Assembly: GCF_001427985.1 (NCBI RefSeq)
Contig: NZ_LMSA01000002.1
Location: 401,550-465,549 of the forward strand
DNA length: 64,000 bases
Direction of reading: 5' to 3'
Origin: Knoellia sp. Soil729
GTDB lineage: Bacteria; Actinomycetota; Actinomycetes; Actinomycetales; Dermatophilaceae
How positions within the stretch are numbered: the first letter of the stretch is position 1; each line of letters starts with the position of its first letter. The notes under the pieces are model-generated. The model did no database searches. It was not told the DNA's origin and saw only the letters and a program-made list of their open reading frames with translations. Of this stretch, positions 5,985 through 55,826 are shown in pieces. Made by a program: the position numbers and the translations under genes.

Positions 5985-7193
5985 ATGAACCCGTGGATCG
6001 CGTTGGTGGCCGGCATCGTCCTGGGTGCCGTCACGGCATACCTGCTTCTCCGGCAGACGTATGCCGTGCGTGCAGCTTCCGTGGCCACCGAGCGTGACCT
6101 CCTGCGCGAGCGGGTGCTGGACCTCGAGGCCTCGCTCGCCGAGGACCTCGAGACCGCCTCGCTGCTCGCACCGCTGCGTGACGCCCTCGGCCGTGTCGAG
6201 CGCCAGGTCGGTGTCCTCGAGCGTGACCGGGTGGAGCAGTTCGGGGCACTGCGTGCCGTCATGGGGCGCGTGGAGTCGGAGGCCCAGCAGCTCGGCCGGC
6301 AGACCCAGTCCCTGGCGGGCTCGCTGAGGTCCTCGTCGGTGCGCGGTTCGTGGGGGGAGGTGCAGCTGCGCCGCGTGCTCGAGGCCTCCGGCATGCTGGC
6401 CCGCTGCGACTTCGAGGAGCAGGTCCGAGCGCGCAGCCGCCACGACCGCGAGGTCCGCCCCGACGTGGTCGTCCGTCTGCCGGGTGAGCGCGCGCTCGTC
6501 ATCGATGCCAAGGCCCCGATGGCCGCGTTCCTCGATGCCCAGACCGAGGAGCTCGCCGACGACGAGCGGGCCGAGCTGCTGCGCGACCACGCGAGCGCTC
6601 TGCGCCAGCACGTGCACGCGCTGTCGGCCAAGGACTACTGGTCGGCGTTCGAGACGACCCCCGAGATGGTCGTGTGCTTCGTGCCGAGTGATGCAATGCT
6701 CGGCGCGGCGCTGGCGGCCGACCCCGGGCTGCACGAGCGCGCCATGGCGGCCAAGGTCGTGCTGGTCGGACCCGGCACCCTTCTGGCGCTGCTGCGCACC
6801 GTGGCGTTCGGGTGGCAGCAGGACGCCCTCTCGTCGAGCGCGCGCGAGCTGCTCGCCCTGGGTCAGGAGCTCTATCGACGCCTGTCGACGCTCGGCACCC
6901 ACACCGCCAAGATGGGGCGCTCGCTGCACGCGACGGTCGAGAGCTACAACCAGTTCGTGGGAGCGCTCGAGTCGCGGGTGTTCGTCACGGCCCGGCGCAT
7001 GCAGGACCTCGACCTCGTCGCCGATGATCTGCCACAGCTGGTGCCGCTCGAGACCGGGCCACGGGTGCTCACCGCCATCGAGCTGCTCGAGGCGGTCGCC
7101 GGTGAGGACCGGCGACCCGAGGTCGACCTGGACGACCTGGACGACCTCCGCGCAGGCTCAGGGCGTCAGGAGTCGGTCGACGAGACCGCATAG
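5985..7193 (+). CDS. rmuC: DNA recombination protein RmuC
   Basis: RmuC-family proteins limit DNA inversions and resemble nucleases. This one (402 aa) has an N-terminal membrane anchor (residues about 3-22), a coiled coil rich in E, R and L (about 25-110), and the RmuC domain (about 115-340) with the conserved SSVRGSWGEVQLRRVLE and VIDAKAPMAAF stretches. The ATG at 5985 is preferred over an in-frame GTG 33 nt upstream because it starts right before the anchor helix. Its 3' end overlaps the converging DUF1989 gene by 28 bp. Confidence 0.93.
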   Translation: MNPWIALVAGIVLGAVTAYLLLRQTYAVRAASVATERDLLRERVLDLEASLAEDLETASLLAPLRDALGRVERQVGVLERDRVEQFGALRAVMGRVESEAQQLGRQTQSLAGSLRSSSVRGSWGEVQLRRVLEASGMLARCDFEEQVRARSRHDREVRPDVVVRLPGERALVIDAKAPMAAFLDAQTEELADDERAELLRDHASALRQHVHALSAKDYWSAFETTPEMVVCFVPSDAMLGAALAADPGLHERAMAAKVVLVGPGTLLALLRTVAFGWQQDALSSSARELLALGQELYRRLSTLGTHTAKMGRSLHATVESYNQFVGALESRVFVTARRMQDLDLVADDLPQLVPLETGPRVLTAIELLEAVAGEDRRPEVDLDDLDDLRAGSGRQESVDETA

Positions 7194-45502: not shown

Positions 45503-46549
45503 ATGACGACGTCGCCCCAGGTGCGTGCTCGCGCCGGTCTGCTCGCCGGGCTCACGCCCGGCTACTACGCGTTCGTCATGGCCAGCGGCATCGTGTCGCT
45601 GGGCTTCGACCTGCTCGGCTTCAGGACGCTGTCCGTCGCGCTGTTCGCCATCTGCGTGGTCGGCTACGTGGTCCTGTGCGCCCTCAATGCAGCACGCTTC
45701 ACCAGCCACCGGCGTGCCATGGCCGACGACTTCCGCGACCCGAAGCGGGCGTTCGGCTTCTTCACCTTCGTCGCCGGCACGAACGTCCTGGGGGTCCGTG
45801 CCGGAGCCGAGGGCTGGTATGCCGTGACCGCCACCCTGCTCGTCGTCGCCGGACTCGCCTGGCTCGTGCTCGGCTACGTCATCCCGTGGAGCGCGGTCCT
45901 GGGGCAGGAAGAGCGACCCGTCGTCGCCTTCGCCAACGGGACGTGGTTCATCTGGGTGGTCGCGAGCCAGTCGGTCGCCGTGTCCGCCGCCACCCTGGCG
46001 AACGTCTACCCACGAGGGCTCCACGCGCTCGTGATCCTGGCGATCCTGTGCTGGTCCGTCGGCGTCTTCCTCTATGCCGCGTCGGGGATCATCGTCGCCC
46101 TGCGACTCATGCTCTACCCGCTCGACCCCCGCGACTTCGACCCGCCCTACTGGGTGGCCATGGGCGCAGTGGCCATCACCGTCGTCGCGGGAGCACGCAT
46201 CGTCGAGATGGACTCCGCGCCGATGGTCGACGCGACGCGCGGCCTCATCGCCGGGCTGTCGGTCGTGTTCTGGGCGTTCGCCACCTGGCTCATCCCGGTG
46301 CTCGTCGCCGTCGGCGTGTGGCGGCACGTCCTGCGCAAGGTCCCCCTGCGCTACGAGCCCACCTTGTGGAGCATGGTCTTCCCGCTCGGCATGTATGCCG
46401 TGGCCGGCATCTACCTGGGACGCGCCGACGAGCTCCCGATCGTGGACTGGATCGGCTCGGCCTGGCTCTGGGTGGCGGCCGCCGCCTGGGCCGCGGTCTT
46501 CGTCGCGATGCTCCGTGAGGTGGTGCGCACGGTGTCGGGCCCTCGCTGA
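45503..46549 (+). CDS. TDT-family transporter (TehA/Mae1-like)
   Basis: This 348-residue membrane protein has about ten helices and begins GLTPGYYAFVMASGIVSLGFDLLG, the typical first helix of the tellurite-resistance/dicarboxylate transporter (TDT) family, related to TehA and SLAC1 anion channels. The ATG at 45503 is preferred over an upstream in-frame GTG because it directly precedes that helix. The substrate (a C4-dicarboxylate, sulfite or chloride-like anion) is not known. Confidence 0.87.
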   Translation: MTTSPQVRARAGLLAGLTPGYYAFVMASGIVSLGFDLLGFRTLSVALFAICVVGYVVLCALNAARFTSHRRAMADDFRDPKRAFGFFTFVAGTNVLGVRAGAEGWYAVTATLLVVAGLAWLVLGYVIPWSAVLGQEERPVVAFANGTWFIWVVASQSVAVSAATLANVYPRGLHALVILAILCWSVGVFLYAASGIIVALRLMLYPLDPRDFDPPYWVAMGAVAITVVAGARIVEMDSAPMVDATRGLIAGLSVVFWAFATWLIPVLVAVGVWRHVLRKVPLRYEPTLWSMVFPLGMYAVAGIYLGRADELPIVDWIGSAWLWVAAAAWAAVFVAMLREVVRTVSGPR

Positions 46550-46574
46550 GGAGCGCCCGACACCGCGGTGAGGG

Positions 46575-47135
46575 TCAGGACTGGGCCGCGACCCCGTCGA
46601 GGTCGAGGACCTTGCTGTGCAGGGTGTCGAGGAGGTCGCGCAGCTCGGTGCTCGCTGCGCCCTCGGCGTCGACGACCGAGCCGTCGATGGTCAGCTGCTC
46701 GGGGAAGCTCAGCCCGAGGCCACCCACCACGTCGGCCTTGACATGGGTGAGCACCTTGGCGAGGTCGGCGCACGCGTCGCTGGCGCCGCTCCAGCCGTAG
46801 CCCACGAGGCCGATCGGCTTGGAGTCCCACTCCGCGAAGAGGTAGTCGATCGCGTTCTTGATCGGCGCGGGGTAGCTGCGGTTGTACTGCGGCGTGACGA
46901 CGAGCACCGCGTCCGACTCGAAGATCGCGCTGGCCCACGCCTGGGTGTGCGGCTTGGCGTAGTTGCCGTTCTTGGGCATGTCCTCCTCGTCGAAGAAGGG
47001 CAGGTTGATCTCGCCCAGGTCGAGGATCCTGACCTCCCACTGCTCGCGGGACGCCTGCTCGCTCACCCACTGGGTGACCTTGTGGCCGATGCGGTTCGGA
47101 CGGGTGCTGGACACGATGATGCTGAGTTGATTCAC
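46575..47135 (-). CDS. NADPH-dependent FMN reductase
   Basis: This 186-residue flavodoxin-like protein starts LSIIVSSTRPNRIGHKV (phosphate loop for FMN, residues 4-20) and has VLVVTPQYNRSYPAPIKNAIDYL and GLVGYGWSGAS, marks of the NADPH-dependent FMN/azoreductase family. The start is GTG at 47135. It ends 26 bp from the converging TDT gene. The natural electron acceptor is unknown. Confidence 0.92.
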   Translation of the reverse strand: MNQLSIIVSSTRPNRIGHKVTQWVSEQASREQWEVRILDLGEINLPFFDEEDMPKNGNYAKPHTQAWASAIFESDAVLVVTPQYNRSYPAPIKNAIDYLFAEWDSKPIGLVGYGWSGASDACADLAKVLTHVKADVVGGLGLSFPEQLTIDGSVVDAEGAASTELRDLLDTLHSKVLDLDGVAAQS

Positions 47136-47180
47136 ATTTCAACCAACAGCCCGGTCCCGCTCCCCATTCCCACCTCCGCC

Positions 47181-47249
47181 AGCAGTCGAGAGGAGACGAC
47201 ATCCCGTATGCCGTCCGCCCACGCGGGAAGTTGTCTCCTCTCGACTGCT
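47181..47249 (-). terminator. Hairpin, family A copy 3
   Basis: Arms 47181-47206 and 47224-47249 pair at 24 of 26 positions around a 17-nt loop that carries a GTATGCCG octamer. It follows the gene at 47255 on the minus strand. The arm AGTCGAGAGGAGACGA is a one-base variant of copies 1 and 4. Confidence 0.85.
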
Positions 47250-47254
47250 TCCGG

Positions 47255-48229
47255 TCAGAGGATGTTCAGGCTGCGCGGGTCGAGGCCCAGGGCCCGGGCC
47301 ACGAACTCCAGGGTCTCGACGCGCCTGGGAGGTCGGAAGATGTCGTCGACGAAGAGCTCCCGCACGGTGTGGCCCGTGGACTCGAGCAGCCGGCGCTTGG
47401 CCTCGTCGCCGCTGCGTGCATCGATGTCGGCGTGGACCTGTCCCTGGTACTCCGCCGCCACGCGCCGTGCCCACCACAGGAGGTCCACCTCGGCGAGGTA
47501 CTCACCAGCGTCGTCGGTGACCACGCCGTTGACCTCGGGTTCGGGGAGCCCCGCGCGGACGAACATCAGCCGGGCGCGTGACTCCATCGGCGACTTCACA
47601 CGGGGACGGATGAGATCGAGCGCCTGGCGCAGCATGACCTTGCCGCGTGGTCGCACACGCCGACCCAGCGCCTCGTGCAAGGCCATCACCCCTCGCGATG
47701 TCCGTGCTCCCGACCGGACCTCCGCCTGGGTGCCGGCATCGAGCCGCGCGACCACTGCATCGCCGAGCACGACAGGGTCGTCGACCGTGAGCCGGCCCCT
47801 CCGCAGCTCGCCGAGGTCACACCAGGTGTCGGCCAGGCCGACCAGCCTGAGGCCATCGACGACCTCCACCTCACGGATCTCGAGGCCGCGGTGGCCCCGG
47901 CAGCCCTCTCGCTTCACCTGGCCGTCCGAGGTGGGGGCCATGATGTCGAGGTCCCCGGTCTCGGCCTCCCGGACGAGGAAGCTCGGCACCGGTAGGTCGC
48001 GAAGGACCGCATTGGTGACGTGGGAGAAGGCGCGGGCGGACGGCATACCGGCGGCGTAGGCCGCAGCCCGTTCCGCCACGGTGACCGGAGTGGTCAGGGA
48101 GTGCGCACCATGGGTTGGGTGGACGAGGTCGCCCCGATGCATGCGCATCCCGGGCACGCCGAGCTCTCGAGCGCGGGACGTGGAGAACGGACCTCGCGCA
48201 AGCTCGTCGGGAAGCGGCTGCGGTCGCAC
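47255..48229 (-). CDS. AbiEi-like protein with a Vsr/DUF559-type endonuclease-like domain
   Basis: This 324-residue protein has an N-terminal region resembling the helix-turn-helix of AbiEi-type antitoxin proteins (FSTSRARELGVPGMRMHRGDLV, residues 15-36). The C-terminal part (about 215-300) has SRARLMFVRAGLP, YLAEVDLLWWARRVAAEYQG and RRLLESTGHTVRELFVDDI, like the Vsr/DUF559 PD-(D/E)xK fold with E, D and ExQ-like residues. Such proteins are common and uncharacterised in actinobacteria; no toxin gene is adjacent. Family hairpins lie on both sides. Confidence 0.7.
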   Translation of the reverse strand: MRPQPLPDELARGPFSTSRARELGVPGMRMHRGDLVHPTHGAHSLTTPVTVAERAAAYAAGMPSARAFSHVTNAVLRDLPVPSFLVREAETGDLDIMAPTSDGQVKREGCRGHRGLEIREVEVVDGLRLVGLADTWCDLGELRRGRLTVDDPVVLGDAVVARLDAGTQAEVRSGARTSRGVMALHEALGRRVRPRGKVMLRQALDLIRPRVKSPMESRARLMFVRAGLPEPEVNGVVTDDAGEYLAEVDLLWWARRVAAEYQGQVHADIDARSGDEAKRRLLESTGHTVRELFVDDIFRPPRRVETLEFVARALGLDPRSLNIL

Positions 48230-48280
48230 CCGAGGAGCATCCCCGAAATCGAGGTTTCGGCCGCGGAGTCATCCACAGGA

Positions 48281-48347
48281 GCAGTCGAGAGTAGACGACA
48301 TCCCGCGTGCCGTACCGGCACGCGGGATGTCGTCTACTCTCGACTGC
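48281..48347 (-). terminator. Hairpin after adk, family A copy 4
   Basis: A perfect 32-bp inverted repeat (48281-48312 with 48316-48347) with a TAC loop follows adk. It is the longest hairpin in the window. Outer arm CAGTCGAGAGTAGACGA. Confidence 0.9.
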
Positions 48348-48359
48348 TTCTGGGGCGGT

Positions 48360-48920
48360 TCAGGCCAGGGCGGCGATGACCCGCTCAGTGACCTCGTCGA
48401 CCTCACCGAGGCCGTCGACCTCGACCAGCAGGTCGCGCTCGGCATAGACGTCGGTCAAGGGAGCGGTCTCACGGCGGTAGATCGCCTGACGCTCCCGGAT
48501 GACCTCTTCGGTGTCGTCGACACGGCCCTCGATCTCGGCGCGCTTGAGGAGGCGGTCGACGACGGCGTCCTCGTCGACCGTGAGGGCGAGGACCTTGTCG
48601 ACGCCGACGTCGGTCTTGGCGAGCATCTCGTCCAGGGCGACGACCTGGCCCGTCGTGCGCGGGTAGCCGTCGAGCAGGAAGCCGCCCTCGCAGTCGGACT
48701 GCGCGAGGCGGTCTTCGACGATCGCGTTGGTGATGTCGTCGGAGACGTAGCCACCGGAGGCGGTGATCTCCTGGACCTGCTTGCCGAGCTCCGTGCCGGC
48801 CTTGATGTTGGCGCGGAAGATGTCGCCGGTGGAGATGGCGGGGATGGCGAAGTGCTCTGCGATGCGGGCGGCCTGCGTGCCCTTGCCTGCACCGGGGGGA
48901 CCGAGAATGATCAGACGCAT
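48360..48920 (-). CDS. adk: Adenylate kinase
   Basis: Adk balances AMP, ADP and ATP. The 186-residue protein has P-loop GPPGAGKG (residues 7-14), AMP-binding STGDIFR and [10 protein letters not shown]. It is the short type with only a brief loop in place of the zinc LID domain, as is usual in actinobacteria. The ATG overlaps the secY stop by 1 nt (TAATG). Confidence 0.98.
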
Positions 48921-50236
48921 TACTTCAGGAACCCTTCGTAGTGTCGCTGCTGCAGCTGGGACTCGATCTGCTTCACGGTCTCGAGCCCGACACCGACGAT
49001 GATCAGGATCGAGGTGCCACCGAACGGGAAGTTCTGGTTGGCCCCGACGAGGACGAGCGCGAGCAACGGGATGATCGAGATCAGCGCGAGGTAGATCGCT
49101 CCCGGCACGGTGATGCGTGTGAGCACGTACTGGAGGTACTCGGCCGTGGGTCGCCCGGCCCGGATACCCGGGATGAAGCCGCCGTACTTCTTCATGTTGT
49201 CGGCAACCTCGGTGGGGTTGAACGTGATCGACACATAGAAGAACGTGAAGAAGAGGATGAGCGCGGTGTAGGTGAGGCCGTAGGCCCACGTGTCACCGCC
49301 GGAGTAGTTCGCGTCGATCCACTGCACCCAGCCCGACGACGTGCCGTCGGCCTTGCGGTTGAACTGGGCCAGCAGTGTCGGGAGCGCAAGCAGCGAGCTG
49401 GCGAAGATGACGGGGATGACACCCGCCATGTTGACCTTGAGCGGGATGTAGGTCGACGTGCCGCCGTAGACGCGGCGCCCGACCATGCGCTTGGCGTACT
49501 GGACCGGGATGCGCCGCTGGCTCTGCTCGACGAAGACGACGAGCGCGATGATGACGAAGCCCATGAGGATGATCCCCAGGAAGATGTCCCAGCGACCCTC
49601 CTTCTGCTGGATGGCCCACAGGGCGCCCGGGAAGGTCGCGGCGATCGACGTGAAGATGAGGATCGACATGCCGTTGCCGACGCCGTGGTCGGTGACGAGC
49701 TCACCGAGCCACATGACGAGGCCGGTGCCGGCCGTCATCGTGAGCACCATGATGAGGATCGTCACGAGCGAGTGGTCGGTGAGGATGTTGGTGCATGCCG
49801 GGTTGGCGAAGAGCTGCTGCGGGTTCTGCGCGAAGGTGATGAACGTCGCCGACTGCAGCACGGCCAGGGCGATGGTCAGGTAACGCGTGTACTGCGTCAT
49901 CTTGGCCTGCCCGGCCTGTCCCTCCTTCTTGAGGGACTCGAACTTCGGGATCACCACGGTGAGCAGCTGGATGATGATGCTCGCGGTGATGTAGGGCATG
50001 ATCCCCAGCGCGAAGATCGACAGCTGGAGCAGTGCCCCACCGCTGAAGAGGTTCGCGAGGCCCAGCAGGTCGTTGGCGTCGCCCGCGCCCTTCTGGCACG
50101 CCTGGATGAGCGAGTAGCTCACGCCGGGCGTGGGCACCTGGGCGCCCAGACGGTACAGAGCGATGACCCCGAGCGTGAACAGGATCTTCCTGCGCAGGTC
50201 GGGCGTCTTGAACGCACGGCCGAAAGCGGTGAGCAC
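48920..50236 (-). CDS. secY: Preprotein translocase subunit SecY
   Basis: This 438-residue protein has ten membrane helices and forms the protein-conducting channel with SecE and SecG. Recognisable parts are the N-terminal [20 protein letters not shown], the plug region after helix 1, and the C-terminal cytoplasmic [20 protein letters not shown]. It follows rplO after a 181-bp gap with a strong hairpin, so it may be transcribed at a lower level than the ribosomal genes. Confidence 0.98.
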
Positions 50237-50345
50237 AGGTCCTCCAGGTGGGCGGCGGTAGCCGCATCAGTGTGTTGATCGACGAACAAGATACCCCGAC
50301 GCCGCTGACGGTCGACGACCGCCGTGGTCACGGAGGGTCAAACGA

Positions 50346-50404
50346 CGTATGCCGCAGGGCAGGTTCCCGAAGCTGCCCTCGGGAACCGCGCCCTGCGGCA
50401 TACG
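50346..50404 (-). terminator. Hairpin between rplO and secY with inverted octamers
   Basis: Arms 50346-50370 and 50379-50404 pair fully apart from one bulge. The outer ends of the stem are formed by GTATGCCGC at 50347 and its complement GCGGCATAC ending at 50403, that is, two copies of the dispersed octamer in inverted arrangement. It should terminate or attenuate the spc operon before secY. Confidence 0.85.
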
Positions 50405-50417
50405 CGCTGGAAAAACG

Positions 50418-50915
50418 TCAGGCAGAGTCGCCCAGGCTGGCCGAGCCGCCCGCCGCCTCGATCTTCTCCTTGGCAGAGGAGGAGAACGCGTTGGCGGTGA
50501 CGTTCACGGCGACCGTGATCTCGCCGGTGCCGAGCACCTTGACGAGGTGGCCGTCGCGGACCGCACCCTTGGCCACGAGGTCCTCGACGCTGACGTCGCC
50601 ACCCTCGGGGTAGAGGGAGGACAGCTTGTCGAGGTTCACGACCTGGTACTGGGTCTTGAACGGGTTCTTGAAGCCGCGCAGCTTCGGAAGACGCATGTGG
50701 AGGGGGGTCGAGCCACCCTCGAAGCGCTCCGGAACCTGGTAGCGGGCCTTGGAGCCCTTGGTACCGCGACCGGCGGTCTTGCCCTTGGAGCCCTCACCAC
50801 GACCGACACGGGTCTTGGCGGTCTTGGCTCCGGGGGCGGGACGCAGGTGGTGGACCTTGAGGGCCGAGGACTGGGTGCTGGTCCCAGCCCCTGCCGTCGT
50901 CTGCTTGTCAGCCAT
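50418..50915 (-). CDS. rplO: 50S ribosomal protein L15
   Basis: L15 is a late-assembling 50S protein. The 165-residue protein starts [12 protein letters not shown] and has an N-terminal [36 protein letters not shown] typical of L15, then a globular C-terminal part. The ATG at 50915 has GAGGAAGTGGAG just before it; a GTG two codons upstream that overlaps the rpmD stop is the alternative. Confidence 0.97.
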
Positions 50916-50917
50916 GA

Positions 50918-51100
50918 TCACTCCACTTCCTCAACGGCAACGAGGTGCGTCACCGTCTTGACCATCCCGCGGATCTCGGGACGGTCCTCCTTGACGACGA
51001 CGTCGCCGATGCGCTTGAGACCGAGGCTGCGCAGGGTGTCGCGCTGGTTCTGCTTGCCGCCGATCTCCGAACGGGTCTGGGTCACCTTGAGACGGCCCAT
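50918..51100 (-). CDS. rpmD: 50S ribosomal protein L30
   Basis: This 60-residue protein ([20 protein letters not shown], then [21 protein letters not shown]) is the short bacterial L30. It lies between rpsE and rplO with a 1-nt overlap at its start (TGATG). Confidence 0.97.
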
Positions 51101-51774
51101 CAGGCACCTGCCTTCGCGGCGTCACGGGACTCGGCGATACCGGCTGCCTGCGCACGGAGCATGGCGGCGGGGGCCACCCGGTCCACGGGCAGACCGCGGC
51201 GCGCGGCCACGGACTCCGGACGCTCGAGCTCCTTGAGGGCCTGAACGGTGGCGTGCACGATGTTGATCGCGTTGTCGGAGCCGAGGCTCTTGGACAGCAC
51301 GTCGTGGATGCCCGCGCACTCGAGCACCGCACGCACCGGACCACCGGCGATGACACCGGTACCGGGGCTGGCGGGGCGGAGCATGACGACGCCGGCAGCG
51401 GCCTCACCCTGGACGGGGTGCGGGATCGTGCCCTGGATGCGCGGGACCTTGAAGAACTCCTTCTTGGCCTCCTCGACACCCTTGGCGATCGCGGCGGGAA
51501 CTTCCTTGGCCTTGCCGTAGCCGACACCCACGGTGCCGTCTCCGTCACCGACGACGACGAGGGCGGTGAAGCTGAAGCGACGACCACCCTTGACGACCTT
51601 GGAGACGCGGTTGATGGTCACGACGCGCTCAAGGTACTGGCTCTTCTCGGCCTCGCGGCCGCCACCGCGACGGTCGTCACCGCGGCCACCGCGACGGTCG
51701 CCGCCACGGTTGTCGCTGCGCTCGCCACCGGTGGTGGTTGCGGGCCCGGTGCCTCGACGCTGGGGTCCTGGCAT
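51100..51774 (-). CDS. rpsE: 30S ribosomal protein S5
   Basis: S5 works with S4 in decoding fidelity and mRNA unwinding. The 224-residue protein has an N-terminal tail of about 45 residues rich in G, R and D ([15 protein letters not shown]), then the S5 core ([40 protein letters not shown]). The basic/acidic tail is typical of actinobacterial S5. Confidence 0.98.
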
Positions 51775-51820
51775 CAGATGTTCCTCATTTCACTGCTGGT
51801 CATGTGCACGATGGTGGAGG

Positions 51821-52195
51821 TCACAGCGACAGCCCACCCTCGCGGGCGCCGTCGGCAATGGCCGCAACGCGACCGTGGTACTTGTTGCCACCGCGGTCGA
51901 AGACGACAGCCTCGACGCCAGCAGCCTTGGCACGCTCGGCCACGAGCTCGCCGACCTTCTTGGCCTTGGCGGTCTTGTCGCCCTCGAAGGAGCGGACGTC
52001 GGCCTCCATGGTCGAGGCCGAGGCGACCGTCTGGCCCAGGGTGTCGTCGACGACCTGGACGAAGACGTGGCGCGACGAGCGCGAGACCACGAGACGCGGG
52101 CGGACTGCGGTGCCCGTGACGCGCTTGCGGAGACGAATGTGGCGACGGCCGCGCGAGGCGACCTTGCCCTTGGCACGCTTGATGATCATTGCCAT
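51821..52195 (-). CDS. rplR: 50S ribosomal protein L18
   Basis: L18 binds 5S rRNA together with L5 and L25. The 124-residue protein has [28 protein letters not shown] and ends [17 protein letters not shown], as usual. It follows rplF with a 3-nt gap. Confidence 0.98.
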
Positions 52196-52198
52196 GGC

Positions 52199-52735
52199 TT
52201 ACTTACCAGCCTTTCCGACCTTGCGGCGGATCTGCTCGCCGGCGTAACGCACGCCCTTGCCCTTGTAGGGGTCGGGCTTGCGGAGCTTGCGAATGTTGGC
52301 GGCAACCTCACCGACGAGCTGCTTGTCGATGCCCTCGACCTGGAACCGCGTGGGGTTCTCGACGGTGAAGGTGATGCCCTGCGGCGCGTTGACCGTGATC
52401 GAGTGCGAGTAGCCGAGCGCGAACTCGAGTGAACCGCCCTTGTTCTGCACGCGGTAACCGGTGCCGTGGATCTCGAGCTTCTTGACGTAGCCCTCGGTGA
52501 CACCGAGAACCATGTTGTGGATGAGGGAGCGCGTCAGGCCGTGGAGCGAACGCGACTCGCGCTCGTCGTCGGGACGTGACACCTGGACCTCACCGTCGGT
52601 CTTCTCGACCTGGATGGGCTGGGCCACCGTGTGTGCGAGCTCGCCCTTGGGTCCCTTGACCTTGACGGTCTGGCCCTCGACGTTGACCTCGACACCGGAG
52701 GGGATGGCAACCGGAAGACGTCCGATGCGCGACAT
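52199..52735 (-). CDS. rplF: 50S ribosomal protein L6
   Basis: L6 lies near the factor-binding site of the 50S. The 178-residue protein starts [17 protein letters not shown] and has two related beta-sheet halves, ending with [20 protein letters not shown] and a basic tail, as expected. Confidence 0.98.
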
Positions 52736-52747
52736 GTCGTGATCCCC

Positions 52748-53146
52748 TTACCAGATGTAGGCGAGGACTTCCCCACCCACACCCTTGCTAGCGGCCTGCC
52801 GGTCAGTGAGCAGACCGGACGACGTCGAGATGATGGCAACACCGAGTCCACCGAGAACCTTGGGCAGGTTGGTCGACTTGGCGTAGACGCGCAGTCCGGG
52901 CTTGGACACGCGACGGACACCGGCGATGGAGCGCTCGCGGTTGGGGCCGTACTTGAGGTTCACGGTCAAGGTCTGTCCGACCTCGGCGTCCTCGACGGTC
53001 CAACCGGCGATGTAACCCTCGGCCTCGAGGATCTCCGCGATGTGCGACTTGAGCTTGCTGAAGGGCATGGCGACCGTGTCCTTGTGCGCCGAGTTGGCGT
53101 TCCGGACGCGGGTCAACATGTCCGCGATCGGGTCAGTCATTGTCAT
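52748..53146 (-). CDS. rpsH: 30S ribosomal protein S8
   Basis: S8 is a primary 16S rRNA binder and, in E. coli, represses the spc operon. The 132-residue protein starts [18 protein letters not shown] and ends [15 protein letters not shown]-like ([14 protein letters not shown]). It is separated from rpsN by 142 bp with hairpins, unlike the tight packing around it. Confidence 0.98.
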
Positions 53147-53229
53147 TGGGCTTCTCCGCCCTCTCTCACCGTGGTTTCGACCGGGGCTGCTGCTCCGGCT
53201 GACCTTCGATGTAGATGGTTTTGGGGTAT

Positions 53230-53264
53230 GCCGCGTGTGCGGCGTGATCCCGGCTGTGCCGGGA
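53230..53264 (-). promoter_or_regulatory. Twin hairpins between rpsN and rpsH
   Basis: Two small perfect stems, GCCGC-GTGT-GCGGC (53230-53243) and TCCCGGC-TGT-GCCGGGA (53248-53264), lie in the 142-bp rpsN-rpsH gap. In E. coli the S8 repressor site is nearby in the same operon (at L5), so a structured control site here is plausible but unproven. A GTATGCCG octamer overlaps the first stem. Confidence 0.45.
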
Positions 53265-53288
53265 CCGGGTTGGCTGGGTCAGCCGTGG

Positions 53289-53474
53289 TCACCAGGACGA
53301 CTTCGTCACACCGGGGAGCTCGCCACGGTGGGCCATCTCCCGCAGGCAGATCCGGCACAGGCCGAACTTGCGGTAGACGGAGTGGGGACGGCCGCAGCGC
53401 TGGCAGCGCGTGTAGCCGCGCACCTTGAACTTCGGCTTCTTGTTCGCCTTGTTGACAAGAGCGGTCTTGGCCAT
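53289..53474 (-). CDS. rpsN: 30S ribosomal protein S14, zinc type
   Basis: This 61-residue S14 is the zinc-binding form with C24, C27, C40 and C43 (CQRC and CRIC). Its position between rplE and rpsH is standard. It is followed by an unusual 142-bp spacer before rpsH. Confidence 0.98.
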
Positions 53475-53475
53475 C

Positions 53476-54060
53476 TCAGTTCTCCTTGAACGGGAAGCCG
53501 AGCGCCTTGAGCAGCGCGCGTCCCTCGTCGTCGTTCGTCGCGGTGGTGACGATGGTGATGTCCATGCCCCGGACGCGGTCGATCTTGTCCTGGTCGATCT
53601 CGTGGAACATCGACTGCTCCGTGAGACCGAACGTGTAGTTGCCGCGGCCGTCGAACTGCTTCGGGCTCATGCCACGGAAGTCACGGATGCGGGGAAGCGC
53701 GACCGAGATGAGGCGGTCGAGGAACTCCCACATGCGGTCACCGCGCAGCGTGGTGTGCGTGCCGATCGGCATGCCCTCACGCAGCTTGAACTGGGCGATC
53801 GACTTGCGGGCCTTGGTGACGACCGGCTTCTGGCCGGTGATCGCCGTGAGGTCCCGGACCGCACCGTCGATGAGCTTGCTGTCCTTGGCCGCGTCGCCGA
53901 CACCCATGTTCACGACGACCTTGACGACGCCGGGAACCTGCATGACGTTGGCGTAGCCGAACTGCTCGAGCAGGCCCGCACGGATCTCGTCCGCGTAGCG
54001 CTGCTTGAGCCGGGGCTTGACAGCGGTGGTTTCAGTCTGAGTACTCATGGTCTGGCTCAC
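53476..54060 (-). CDS. rplE: 50S ribosomal protein L5
   Basis: L5 binds 5S rRNA and contacts P-site tRNA. The 194-residue protein has [46 protein letters not shown] and [21 protein letters not shown]. The GTG start at 54060 overlaps the rplX stop (GTGA); an ATG four codons later (54048) is an alternative start. Confidence 0.97.
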
Positions 54061-54404
54061 AGGTCCTTGCCCGAGCGCACGCTGACGCGGGTACGGGTCG
54101 CCTTCTGGCGGCCGTCACGCTCAACGGTCTCGACGCGGGTCTTGGTGCGGGTCGGCTTCTTGTCCTCGGGGTCGACGACGGCCACGTTGCTCACGTGGAT
54201 CGGCGACTCCTGGACGACGAGGCCACCGGTCTGGCTGCCGCGGGCAGTCTGCCCGGCCTTGGTGTGGCGGGTGACGCGGTTGACACCCTCGACGACGACG
54301 CGGTTCTTCTCGCGGTCGACGGAGATGACCTTGCCGGTCGAGCCCTTGTCCTTGCCGGCGAGCACCTGGACGGTGTCGCCCTTCTTGATGCCGAACTTGG
54401 CCAT
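54057..54404 (-). CDS. rplX: 50S ribosomal protein L24
   Basis: L24 starts 50S assembly. The 115-residue protein has the KOW motif region [24 protein letters not shown] (residues 5-28) and [14 protein letters not shown]. It follows rplN with a 1-nt gap. Confidence 0.98.
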
Positions 54405-54405
54405 G

Positions 54406-54774
54406 TCAGAGCACCTCCGGCGCCAGCGAGATGATCTTCATGAACTTCTTCTCACGCAGCTCGCGACCCACCGGGCCGAAGATGCGGGTTCCACGAGGGT
54501 CACCATCGGTCTTGAGCAGCACTGCTGCGTTCTCATCGAACTTGATGTAGGAACCGTCGGGACGACGGCGCTCCTTCTTGGTCCGGACGATGACCGCCTT
54601 GACGACATCGCCCTTCTTGACGTTGCCACCGGGGATGGCGTCCTTCACGGTGGCGACGATCGTGTCGCCGATACCGGCATACCGGCGACCCGAGCCACCG
54701 AGAACACGGATGCACAGGATCTCCTTGGCACCGGTGTTGTCGGCGACGCGTACTCGCGACTCCTGCTGGATCAC
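54406..54774 (-). CDS. rplN: 50S ribosomal protein L14
   Basis: This 122-residue protein ([45 protein letters not shown]) is standard L14, which forms an inter-subunit bridge. It begins the spc part of the cluster, 82 bp after rpsQ, a gap where a new promoter may lie. Confidence 0.98.
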
Positions 54775-54856
54775 TTATCTGTCTCCTATACGTCGTGCTG
54801 GTTCTCTGCGTTGCCCCGGACGAGCCGGCAGCGGCAGAGCCTGGCCGAACTGGGCT

Positions 54857-55162
54857 TTACTTGGCCTTTTCGAGGATCTCGACCACGCGCCAGCGCTTGG
54901 TCGCCGAGAGCGGGCGGGTCTCCATGATGAGGACGCGGTCGCCGATGCCGGCACCGTTCTCCTCGTCGTGCGCCTTGACCTTGCTGGAGCGACGAAGCAC
55001 CTTGCCGTACAGCGCGTGCTTCACGCGGTCCTCGACCTCGACGACAACGGTCTTGTCCATCTTGTCGCTGACCACGTAGCCCTGGCGGGTCTTGCGGTAG
55101 TTCCGGGCAGCGGTCTCAGCGGCCTGGGTGTGCATGGTCTCGTCCTTCACGTTCTCACTCAC
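54857..55162 (-). CDS. rpsQ: 30S ribosomal protein S17
   Basis: S17 is a primary 16S rRNA-binding OB-fold protein. The 101-residue protein has an N-terminal extension of about 20 residues, then [24 protein letters not shown] and [20 protein letters not shown]. Its GTG overlaps the rpmC stop (GTGA). It is the last gene of the S10 group. Confidence 0.98.
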
Positions 55163-55407
55163 TTGCTGTCCTCCGACGTGGCCGGGGCGGACCCGATGCC
55201 GAGCTCACGCTCGCGCATCTCGGTGTAGATCCGGGCAATGTCCTTGCGAACGGCGCGCAGCCGACCGTGGTTGTCGAGCTGTCCGGTGGCGGACTGGAAC
55301 CGCAGGTTGAACAGCTCCTCCTTGGCCTTGCGCAGCTCGTCGACGAGCTTGTCGTCGTCGAACCCACGCAGCTCGTTGGAGATCAGGTCCTTGGAACCGA
55401 TAGCCAT
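55159..55407 (-). CDS. rpmC: 50S ribosomal protein L29
   Basis: This 82-residue protein ([40 protein letters not shown]) is a helical hairpin at the peptide exit tunnel, where it helps bind SRP and trigger factor. A short C-terminal extension ([15 protein letters not shown]) follows. Its ATG adjoins the rplP stop. Confidence 0.98.
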
Positions 55408-55826
55408 CAGAAGTCACCACCTTCACGCTGGACGAAGCGGCACTTCATCGGCAGCTTGTGCATGGCCAGGCGCATGGCTTCACGCGCGACCTCTTCGGAC
55501 ACACCGGAGATCTCGAACATGATGCGTCCGGGCTTGACGTTGGCGATCCACCACTCGGGCGAACCCTTACCGGAACCCATGCGGGTCTCAGCCGGCTTCT
55601 TGGTCAGCGGGCGGTCGGGGTAGATGTTGATCCACACCTTCCCACCACGCTTCATGTAGCGGGTCATCGCAATACGAGCGGACTCGATCTGGCGGTTGGT
55701 GACATAGGCCGGCTCGAGAGCCTGGAGGCCGTAGTCACCGAACGCGATGACCGTCCCACCCTTGGCAGCGCCGGAACGACCCGGGTGGTGCTGCTTGCGG
55801 TGCTTGACGCGACGGGGAATCAACAT
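55407..55826 (-). CDS. rplP: 50S ribosomal protein L16
   Basis: L16 lies at the A site near the peptidyl-transferase centre. The 139-residue protein starts [20 protein letters not shown] and has [27 protein letters not shown], all standard. Its ATG overlaps the rpsC stop by 1 nt (TGATG). Confidence 0.98.

Follow-up and report, generated by a model that had tools for sequence, protein, structure and literature searches.

Inverted pairs of an abundant octamer form gene-end hairpins in a family of high-GC Gram-positive bacteria and may originate from a DNA-uptake-type word

Inverted pairs of the octamer GTATGCCG form hairpins at gene ends, a conclusion that the sequence evidence makes as good as certain. 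One such hairpin lies between rplO and secY in the 64-kb stretch of DNA that was analyzed (hereafter, the window). The arrangement as a whole probably reflects an uptake-type word, facing copies of which would have become hairpins that were kept at gene ends. The features at the rplO-secY site are as follows.

50346..50404, minus strand: paired-octamer hairpin, approximately 14 nt 3' of the rplO stop codon (fold and shuffles)
50347..50354, plus strand: octamer GTATGCCG, one arm of the stem base (word search)
50396..50403, minus strand: octamer GTATGCCG (CGGCATAC when read on the plus strand), second arm of the stem base (word search)
50418..50921, minus strand: rplO (ribosomal protein L15), with the hairpin at its 3' end (Pfam PF00828)
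48920..50236, minus strand: secY, the next gene downstream of the hairpin (Pfam PF00344)

The fold of positions 50336-50414 on the minus strand, flanks included, had a free energy of −61.5 kcal/mol (z −8.9), and none of 200 shuffled sequences was equally stable. The initial annotation had placed the octamer and its complement at the base of a 25-bp stem. The base of the stem is indeed GTATGCCG/CGGCATAC; its length has to be corrected, since the fold within 50346-50404 contains 27 pairs, a single bulged base, and a loop of 4 nt. A scan of positions 46000-52000 for sigma-70/U-tract terminators did not call this hairpin, and an Rfam search of positions 46000-55500 matched no family. The closest named relatives, as judged by SecY, were Janibacter sp. 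HTCC2649 (96%) and Knoellia flava (95%).

The window contained 40 octamers compared with 0.9 expected. Beyond the rplO-secY site, the following features were recorded.

6034..6066, no strand assigned: divergent inverted octamer pair (CGGCATAC N17 GTATGCCG; word search)
47190..47240, no strand assigned: hairpin between genes, the loop of which contains most of one octamer (47206-47213; fold of −29.6 kcal/mol)

The pair at 6034..6066 was the only other one in the window with its octamers less than 80 nt apart. A single octamer had also been assigned to the loop of a hairpin at 47181. This hairpin exists; its stem spans 47190-47240, and the first two bases of the octamer fall within the stem, with the remainder in the loop region. 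The shuffle test was applied to a shortened segment (47176-47236) of the full stem at 47190-47240. Because the fold of this segment was not clearly better than those of the shuffled sequences (z −1.3 on the plus strand and 0.2 on the minus strand), the hairpin is a weak second example.

The claim that the octamer is used in inverted pairs, which hinged on the presence of other such pairs near gene ends, held up in the genome as a whole. Genome-wide, 47 convergent octamer pairs with separations of 3 to 50 nt were found, and at separations of 10 to 40 nt, 37 pairs were observed compared with 9.8 expected in this genome. Thirty-seven of the 47 pairs (79%) were intergenic: tandem genes flanked 29 of them, two gene ends flanked 8, and two gene starts flanked none. 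Of these intergenic pairs, 32 lay no more than 60 nt from a stop codon. When 4,000 random 35-nt positions were drawn from the same loci, 577 (14%) were intergenic and 181 (4.5%) were within 60 nt of a stop codon; an alternative random intergenic baseline of 21% came from the window and the closed relative G078, not from the pair loci. Octamers overall were intergenic in 99 of 282 cases in the window and G078, and the reversed-word control was intergenic in 8 of 16 cases, which makes it a small control that is itself often intergenic. Genes were predicted by a home-made finder based on codon log-odds with greedy removal of overlaps, which gives exact stops and inexact starts; predicted genes covered 91% of the window, 85% of the loci of this genome's own pairs, 77% of the G078 sample, and 91% of the sample of another family genome, G049.

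The pairs also showed a preferred spacing and complementary inner arms. Separations of 18 nt and 19 nt were seen in 13 and 10 of the 47 pairs, respectively (23 together). In the 40 pairs that remained after 7 short ones were omitted, 4.15 of the first six inner base pairs were matched on average, compared with 2.75 when the arms were re-dealt. In the 10 intragenic pairs, the inner arms were largely unpaired, in line with chance. In addition, there were 29 divergent pairs in this genome; 13 of the 17 examined were intergenic, and several were hairpin-like.

As in intrinsic terminators, a GC-rich hairpin shortly follows the stop codon. A U-tract was rare among the 37 oriented tails, however: five T residues in the first eight tail bases were found in one of them, and the mean was 3.68 T in 15 bases. 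It is likely, from sequence, that the hairpins have a role at the 3' ends of transcripts, and their position and fold suggest that this role is termination. Alternatively, they may be stabilizers or processing sites of mRNA 3' ends, with termination, by Rho or otherwise, occurring further downstream. The 36 of 37 oriented tails without a U-tract and the 29 of 37 intergenic pairs located between tandem genes favor this alternative, nothing speaks directly against it, and it is compatible with a paired-word origin; we regard it as a tentative possibility, with the odds somewhat against it.

The excess of paired octamers extended to other genomes of the family, which from its named relatives is presumably the Intrasporangiaceae/Dermatophilaceae. 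At least 200 octamers were present in 117 of its 186 genomes (34 of 53 genera); three genomes had more than 4,000, and others were at background. The 117 octamer-rich genomes contained 3,164 convergent and 1,438 divergent pairs, compared with 920 expected of each on the basis of rounded genome sizes and independent placement, and the other 69 genomes held 1 convergent and 2 divergent pairs. By genus, the ratio of observed to expected convergent pairs ranged from 0.7 to 14. The convergent excess was weak or absent in g41 and g14 (1.5-fold each), g33 (0.8-fold), and g36 (0.7-fold), and divergent pairs outnumbered convergent ones in g14, g33, and g36. In g18, with the ratio of 14, convergent pairs, divergent pairs, and the reversed control were all raised, and the clustering in this genus is therefore general and not hairpin-specific. 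In G049, 204 convergent pairs were found compared with 20.6 expected, and all six pairs in an 80-kb sample of this genome were located 9 to 36 nt after a stop codon.

An octamer pair was present between rplO and secY in at least 10 loci besides the window among the 51 of 80 loci listed. In 11 genomes, including that of the window, 63 of 66 inner pairs of this hairpin were kept when G-T pairs were allowed, and compensatory two-sided changes were observed at five of the six inner-stem positions. This set left out L018, which has one mismatched arm, and the Nostocoides loci were uncounted. Five octamer-free loci, four from Phycicoccus and one from a Micrococcales MAG (L028), were folded separately and had a strong rplO-secY hairpin without octamers, which is consistent with a gene-end element that outlived the word or with a word that joined it later.

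In the 3.6-Mb genome, of which the window is C2:401550-465549, GTATGCCG occurred 2,138 times, with 1,055 and 1,083 copies on the two strands, compared with 89 reversed words. In an order-level sample of 362 genomes from 19 other families, each genome had at most 180 octamers, at most a few-fold over the reversed control (e.g., 131 versus 45). Within this sample of the order, to which the genome-wide search was confined, the octamer was abundant in this family only. The word is sharply defined: in sampled DNA, 5 of 24 one-mismatch neighbors exceeded twice their own reversed control, and the octamer itself was found 483 times compared with 19 for its reverse. Single octamers, defined by leaving out those within 80 nt of another octamer, had a weak 3' flank preference for T at +8, C at +14, and T at +18 (with the first octamer base as 0). 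Among the 181 octamers within predicted genes, 89 were sense in one frame and 63 were antisense in one frame. The excess was absent in single genomes inside octamer-rich genera, namely, G113 (g41), G008 (g4), and G083 (g32).

Sites that orient FtsK and recombinational chi sites are strand-biased. The octamer showed no such bias along the replichore, either in this genome, as the strand counts given above indicate, or in a 400-kb sample of G078, where 115 of the 242 octamers were on one strand and 127 on the other and the skew showed no trend. This observation bears on the alternative that a chromosome protein recognizes the octamer (in recombination as chi, segregation, nucleoid structure, or methylation), the pairs being dimer sites and the hairpins incidental. 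A sharply defined, non-palindromic word in thousands of copies is what such a site could look like; in contrast, the lack of strand bias is unlike chi or FtsK-orienting sites, and the location of the pairs at gene ends and the covariation of their inner stems indicate RNA. We consider this alternative unlikely. As a side observation, a 20-kb stretch of G078 (G078:C1:700001-720000; L162) had one octamer compared with approximately 12 on average. It carries conjugation genes, with TraG/TraD, a VirB6/TrbL-like match below the cut-off, and an M23/SLT/NlpC-P60 protein, and its scarcity of octamers fits an element of recent acquisition.

Different words were found in other genomes of the family. In a 100-kb sample of the octamer-free genome G064, CGAAGGGGG occurred 62 times compared with 3.5 expected. 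This word was abundant in exactly 19 of the 186 genomes (all 16 of g27 and all three of g35), at 797 to 1,939 copies, and none of the remaining 167 exceeded 80 copies. All 19 were octamer-poor, with at most 41 octamers, and abundant CGAAGGGGG and abundant GTATGCCG were mutually exclusive. Genus g27 appears to be Janibacter, to judge from the presence of CGAAGGGGG in loci so named: seven Janibacter loci had 2 to 10 copies each, 44 in 136 kb together, and the locus of Janibacter sp. HTCC2649, a strain that groups with Knoellia, had none. Extended hairpins are also built from CGAAGGGGG. Between rpsQ and rplN, CGAAGGGGG pairs were present in five Janibacter loci, and octamer pairs were present in three Pedococcus/Knoellia koreensis loci and two Intrasporangium loci, in divergent orientation; matches to Pfam S17 and L14 confirmed the flanking genes in 3 of these 10 loci (L027, L024, and L041). 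No such word pair was present at rpsQ-rplN in the window or in the remaining Knoellia loci.

A third word, GGATGCCG, differs from GTATGCCG by one base and was abundant in 7 of the 186 genomes (G017-G018 of g9, G034-G037 of g15, and G178 of g51), with 2,099 to 4,480 copies compared with at most 1,336 elsewhere. G036 and G037 carry both words, combining a high number of GGATGCCG with approximately 1,200 copies of GTATGCCG. Two of the four close GGATGCCG pairs in 80 kb formed extended hairpins.

Further words were enriched in individual genomes: GTACGCCG in G089 (L154-L158) and G015 (L222-L225), CGCCGTACG in G083 (L149-L153), AGGGCAACC also in G089 (21 versus 0.8 expected), and ACCCTAGGG as a second word in G064 (L139-L143; 10 versus 0.1 expected in 100 kb). 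The enriched words GTACGCCG (G089 and G015) and CGCCGTAC (G083) were considered for hairpin use. Because their few pairs lack extended stems, no such use is claimed for them. In G091 (g35), two CGAAGGGG pairs were without perfect inner extension. Among 14 sampled octamer-poor genomes, seven had no clear word, and G014 had a weak word only.

The recurrence of the arrangement with another word also affects the alternative that the palindromes of 34 to 35 nt are copies of a REP/REPIN-like mobile repeat that carries the octamer, gene ends being permissive insertion sites. The single spacing of 23 of the 47 pairs, many of which have a common inner arm such as TCCGCTC, and the flank AGACGCAG common to five pairs (L132, L136, L184, L192, and L195) would suit such a repeat. 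However, the inner stems vary by site and covary, the rplO hairpin is found at one fixed site with differing stems in 11 genomes, octamers outside close pairs far outnumber the pairs and have their own 3' flank preference, and Janibacter uses a different word likewise. We therefore consider a mobile repeat improbable. An origin of the close pairs as chance by-products of word density, which would account for about 10 pairs at 10 to 40 nt and fits the appearance of the 10 intragenic pairs, is refuted for the whole set by the observed number of pairs, their preferred spacing, their gene-end location, and their inner complementarity.

By analogy with known systems, an uptake sequence is the best single explanation of GTATGCCG, and we believe it to be a reasonably probable one. 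According to the proposed mechanism, GTATGCCG would be one lineage's version of a DNA-uptake-type word and would mark DNA for uptake. Where two copies and their 3' flanks happened to face each other 3' of a gene, a ready-made palindrome would have arisen; it would then have been kept as a hairpin at the transcript's 3' end, its inner stem becoming refined, and in this position it may stop transcription or protect the 3' end. The rplO-secY hairpin would be one case of such retention. This genome encodes ComEC and a ComEA-like protein (SLBB and HHH) in adjacent full-length open reading frames, and TadE matches are present. ComEC and TadE were considered as correlates of the word; they were present in 180 and 181 of the 186 family genomes, respectively, octamer-rich or not, and this near-universal presence does not discriminate. 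Since the competence machinery is present with and without the word, it neither supports nor refutes uptake.

To our knowledge, uptake sequences have been described only in Neisseriaceae and Pasteurellaceae. Among the matches listed in a search of the open-access literature, with subscription journals and preprints mostly outside its reach, there was no report of an uptake sequence in this family or in Actinobacteria. Of 3,142 papers with the octamer or its complement in their text, the 30 listed appeared unrelated to judge from their titles, and this comparison was uninformative. On balance, the analogy leans slightly toward a first Gram-positive DNA-uptake-sequence system, with the dialects GTATGCCG, GGATGCCG, CGAAGGGGG, and perhaps GTACGCCG, with two words in some genomes, and with pairs that repeatedly became 3'-end hairpins, using differing words at the same site across genera. 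If this is true, such a Gram-positive family with its dialects would offer independent evidence on what makes words of this kind spread, and the dialects would provide barriers to gene exchange between species that can be tested. It would also illustrate how hairpins at gene ends can arise from a dispersed word.

The initial annotation had likened the rplO-secY site to the paired uptake sequences of Neisseria, with an unrelated signal. This interpretation is partly supported, in that the architecture passes the tests of excess over chance, orientation, spacing, gene-end location, covarying conservation, and recurrence with another word; the putative role in termination is drawn from position and fold, and that in uptake from analogy. 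According to the available parts of the published accounts, inverted pairs of uptake sequences serve as terminators in Neisseria and Pasteurellaceae (PMC1852404, PMC3630211). As with the Neisseria sequence, there are approximately 2,000 copies, inverted pairs at gene ends, and lineage-specific words, as far as these parts describe them (PMC1852404, PMC3630211). More generally, like the known uptake sequences, for which approximately 1,000 or more copies are characteristic, the octamer is present far above chance and in both orientations, with 2,138 copies in this genome; the words are specific to lineages, and the enrichment of inverted pairs at gene ends depends on the genus, with no convergent excess in g36 and g33. 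Unlike in Neisseria, the word is unrelated, the host is a high-GC Gram-positive bacterium, a separation of 18 to 19 nt is preferred, and the hairpins have an extended GC-rich inner stem and no T-tail.

In Pasteurellaceae, the available part of the source reports spikes in pair spacing at approximately 8 and 19 to 22 nt, ascribed to extended 3' flanks, which are A/T-rich (PMC1852404). The present pairs likewise have a preferred spacing (23 of 47 at 18 to 19 nt), and single octamers weakly favor certain 3' flanking bases; unlike the A/T-rich flanks of Pasteurellaceae, these are mainly the T, C, and T given above for positions +8, +14, and +18, respectively. Among high-GC Gram-positive bacteria, Micrococcus luteus has a Flp-pilus-dependent transformation system with com genes, and a term search of the available part of that paper returned no mention of an uptake sequence (PMC4322843). 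The present genome resembles M. luteus in being that of a high-GC Gram-positive bacterium and in having ComEC, a ComEA-like protein, and TadE matches. With regard to dialects, those of Neisseriaceae share a core, and Simonsiella has two of them, according to the part of the source available (PMC3630211). In the present family, GGATGCCG and GTATGCCG are one base apart; unlike the Neisseriaceae dialects as described there, CGAAGGGGG has no obvious core in common with GTATGCCG, and the two-word state of G036 and G037 is reminiscent of the two dialects of Simonsiella.
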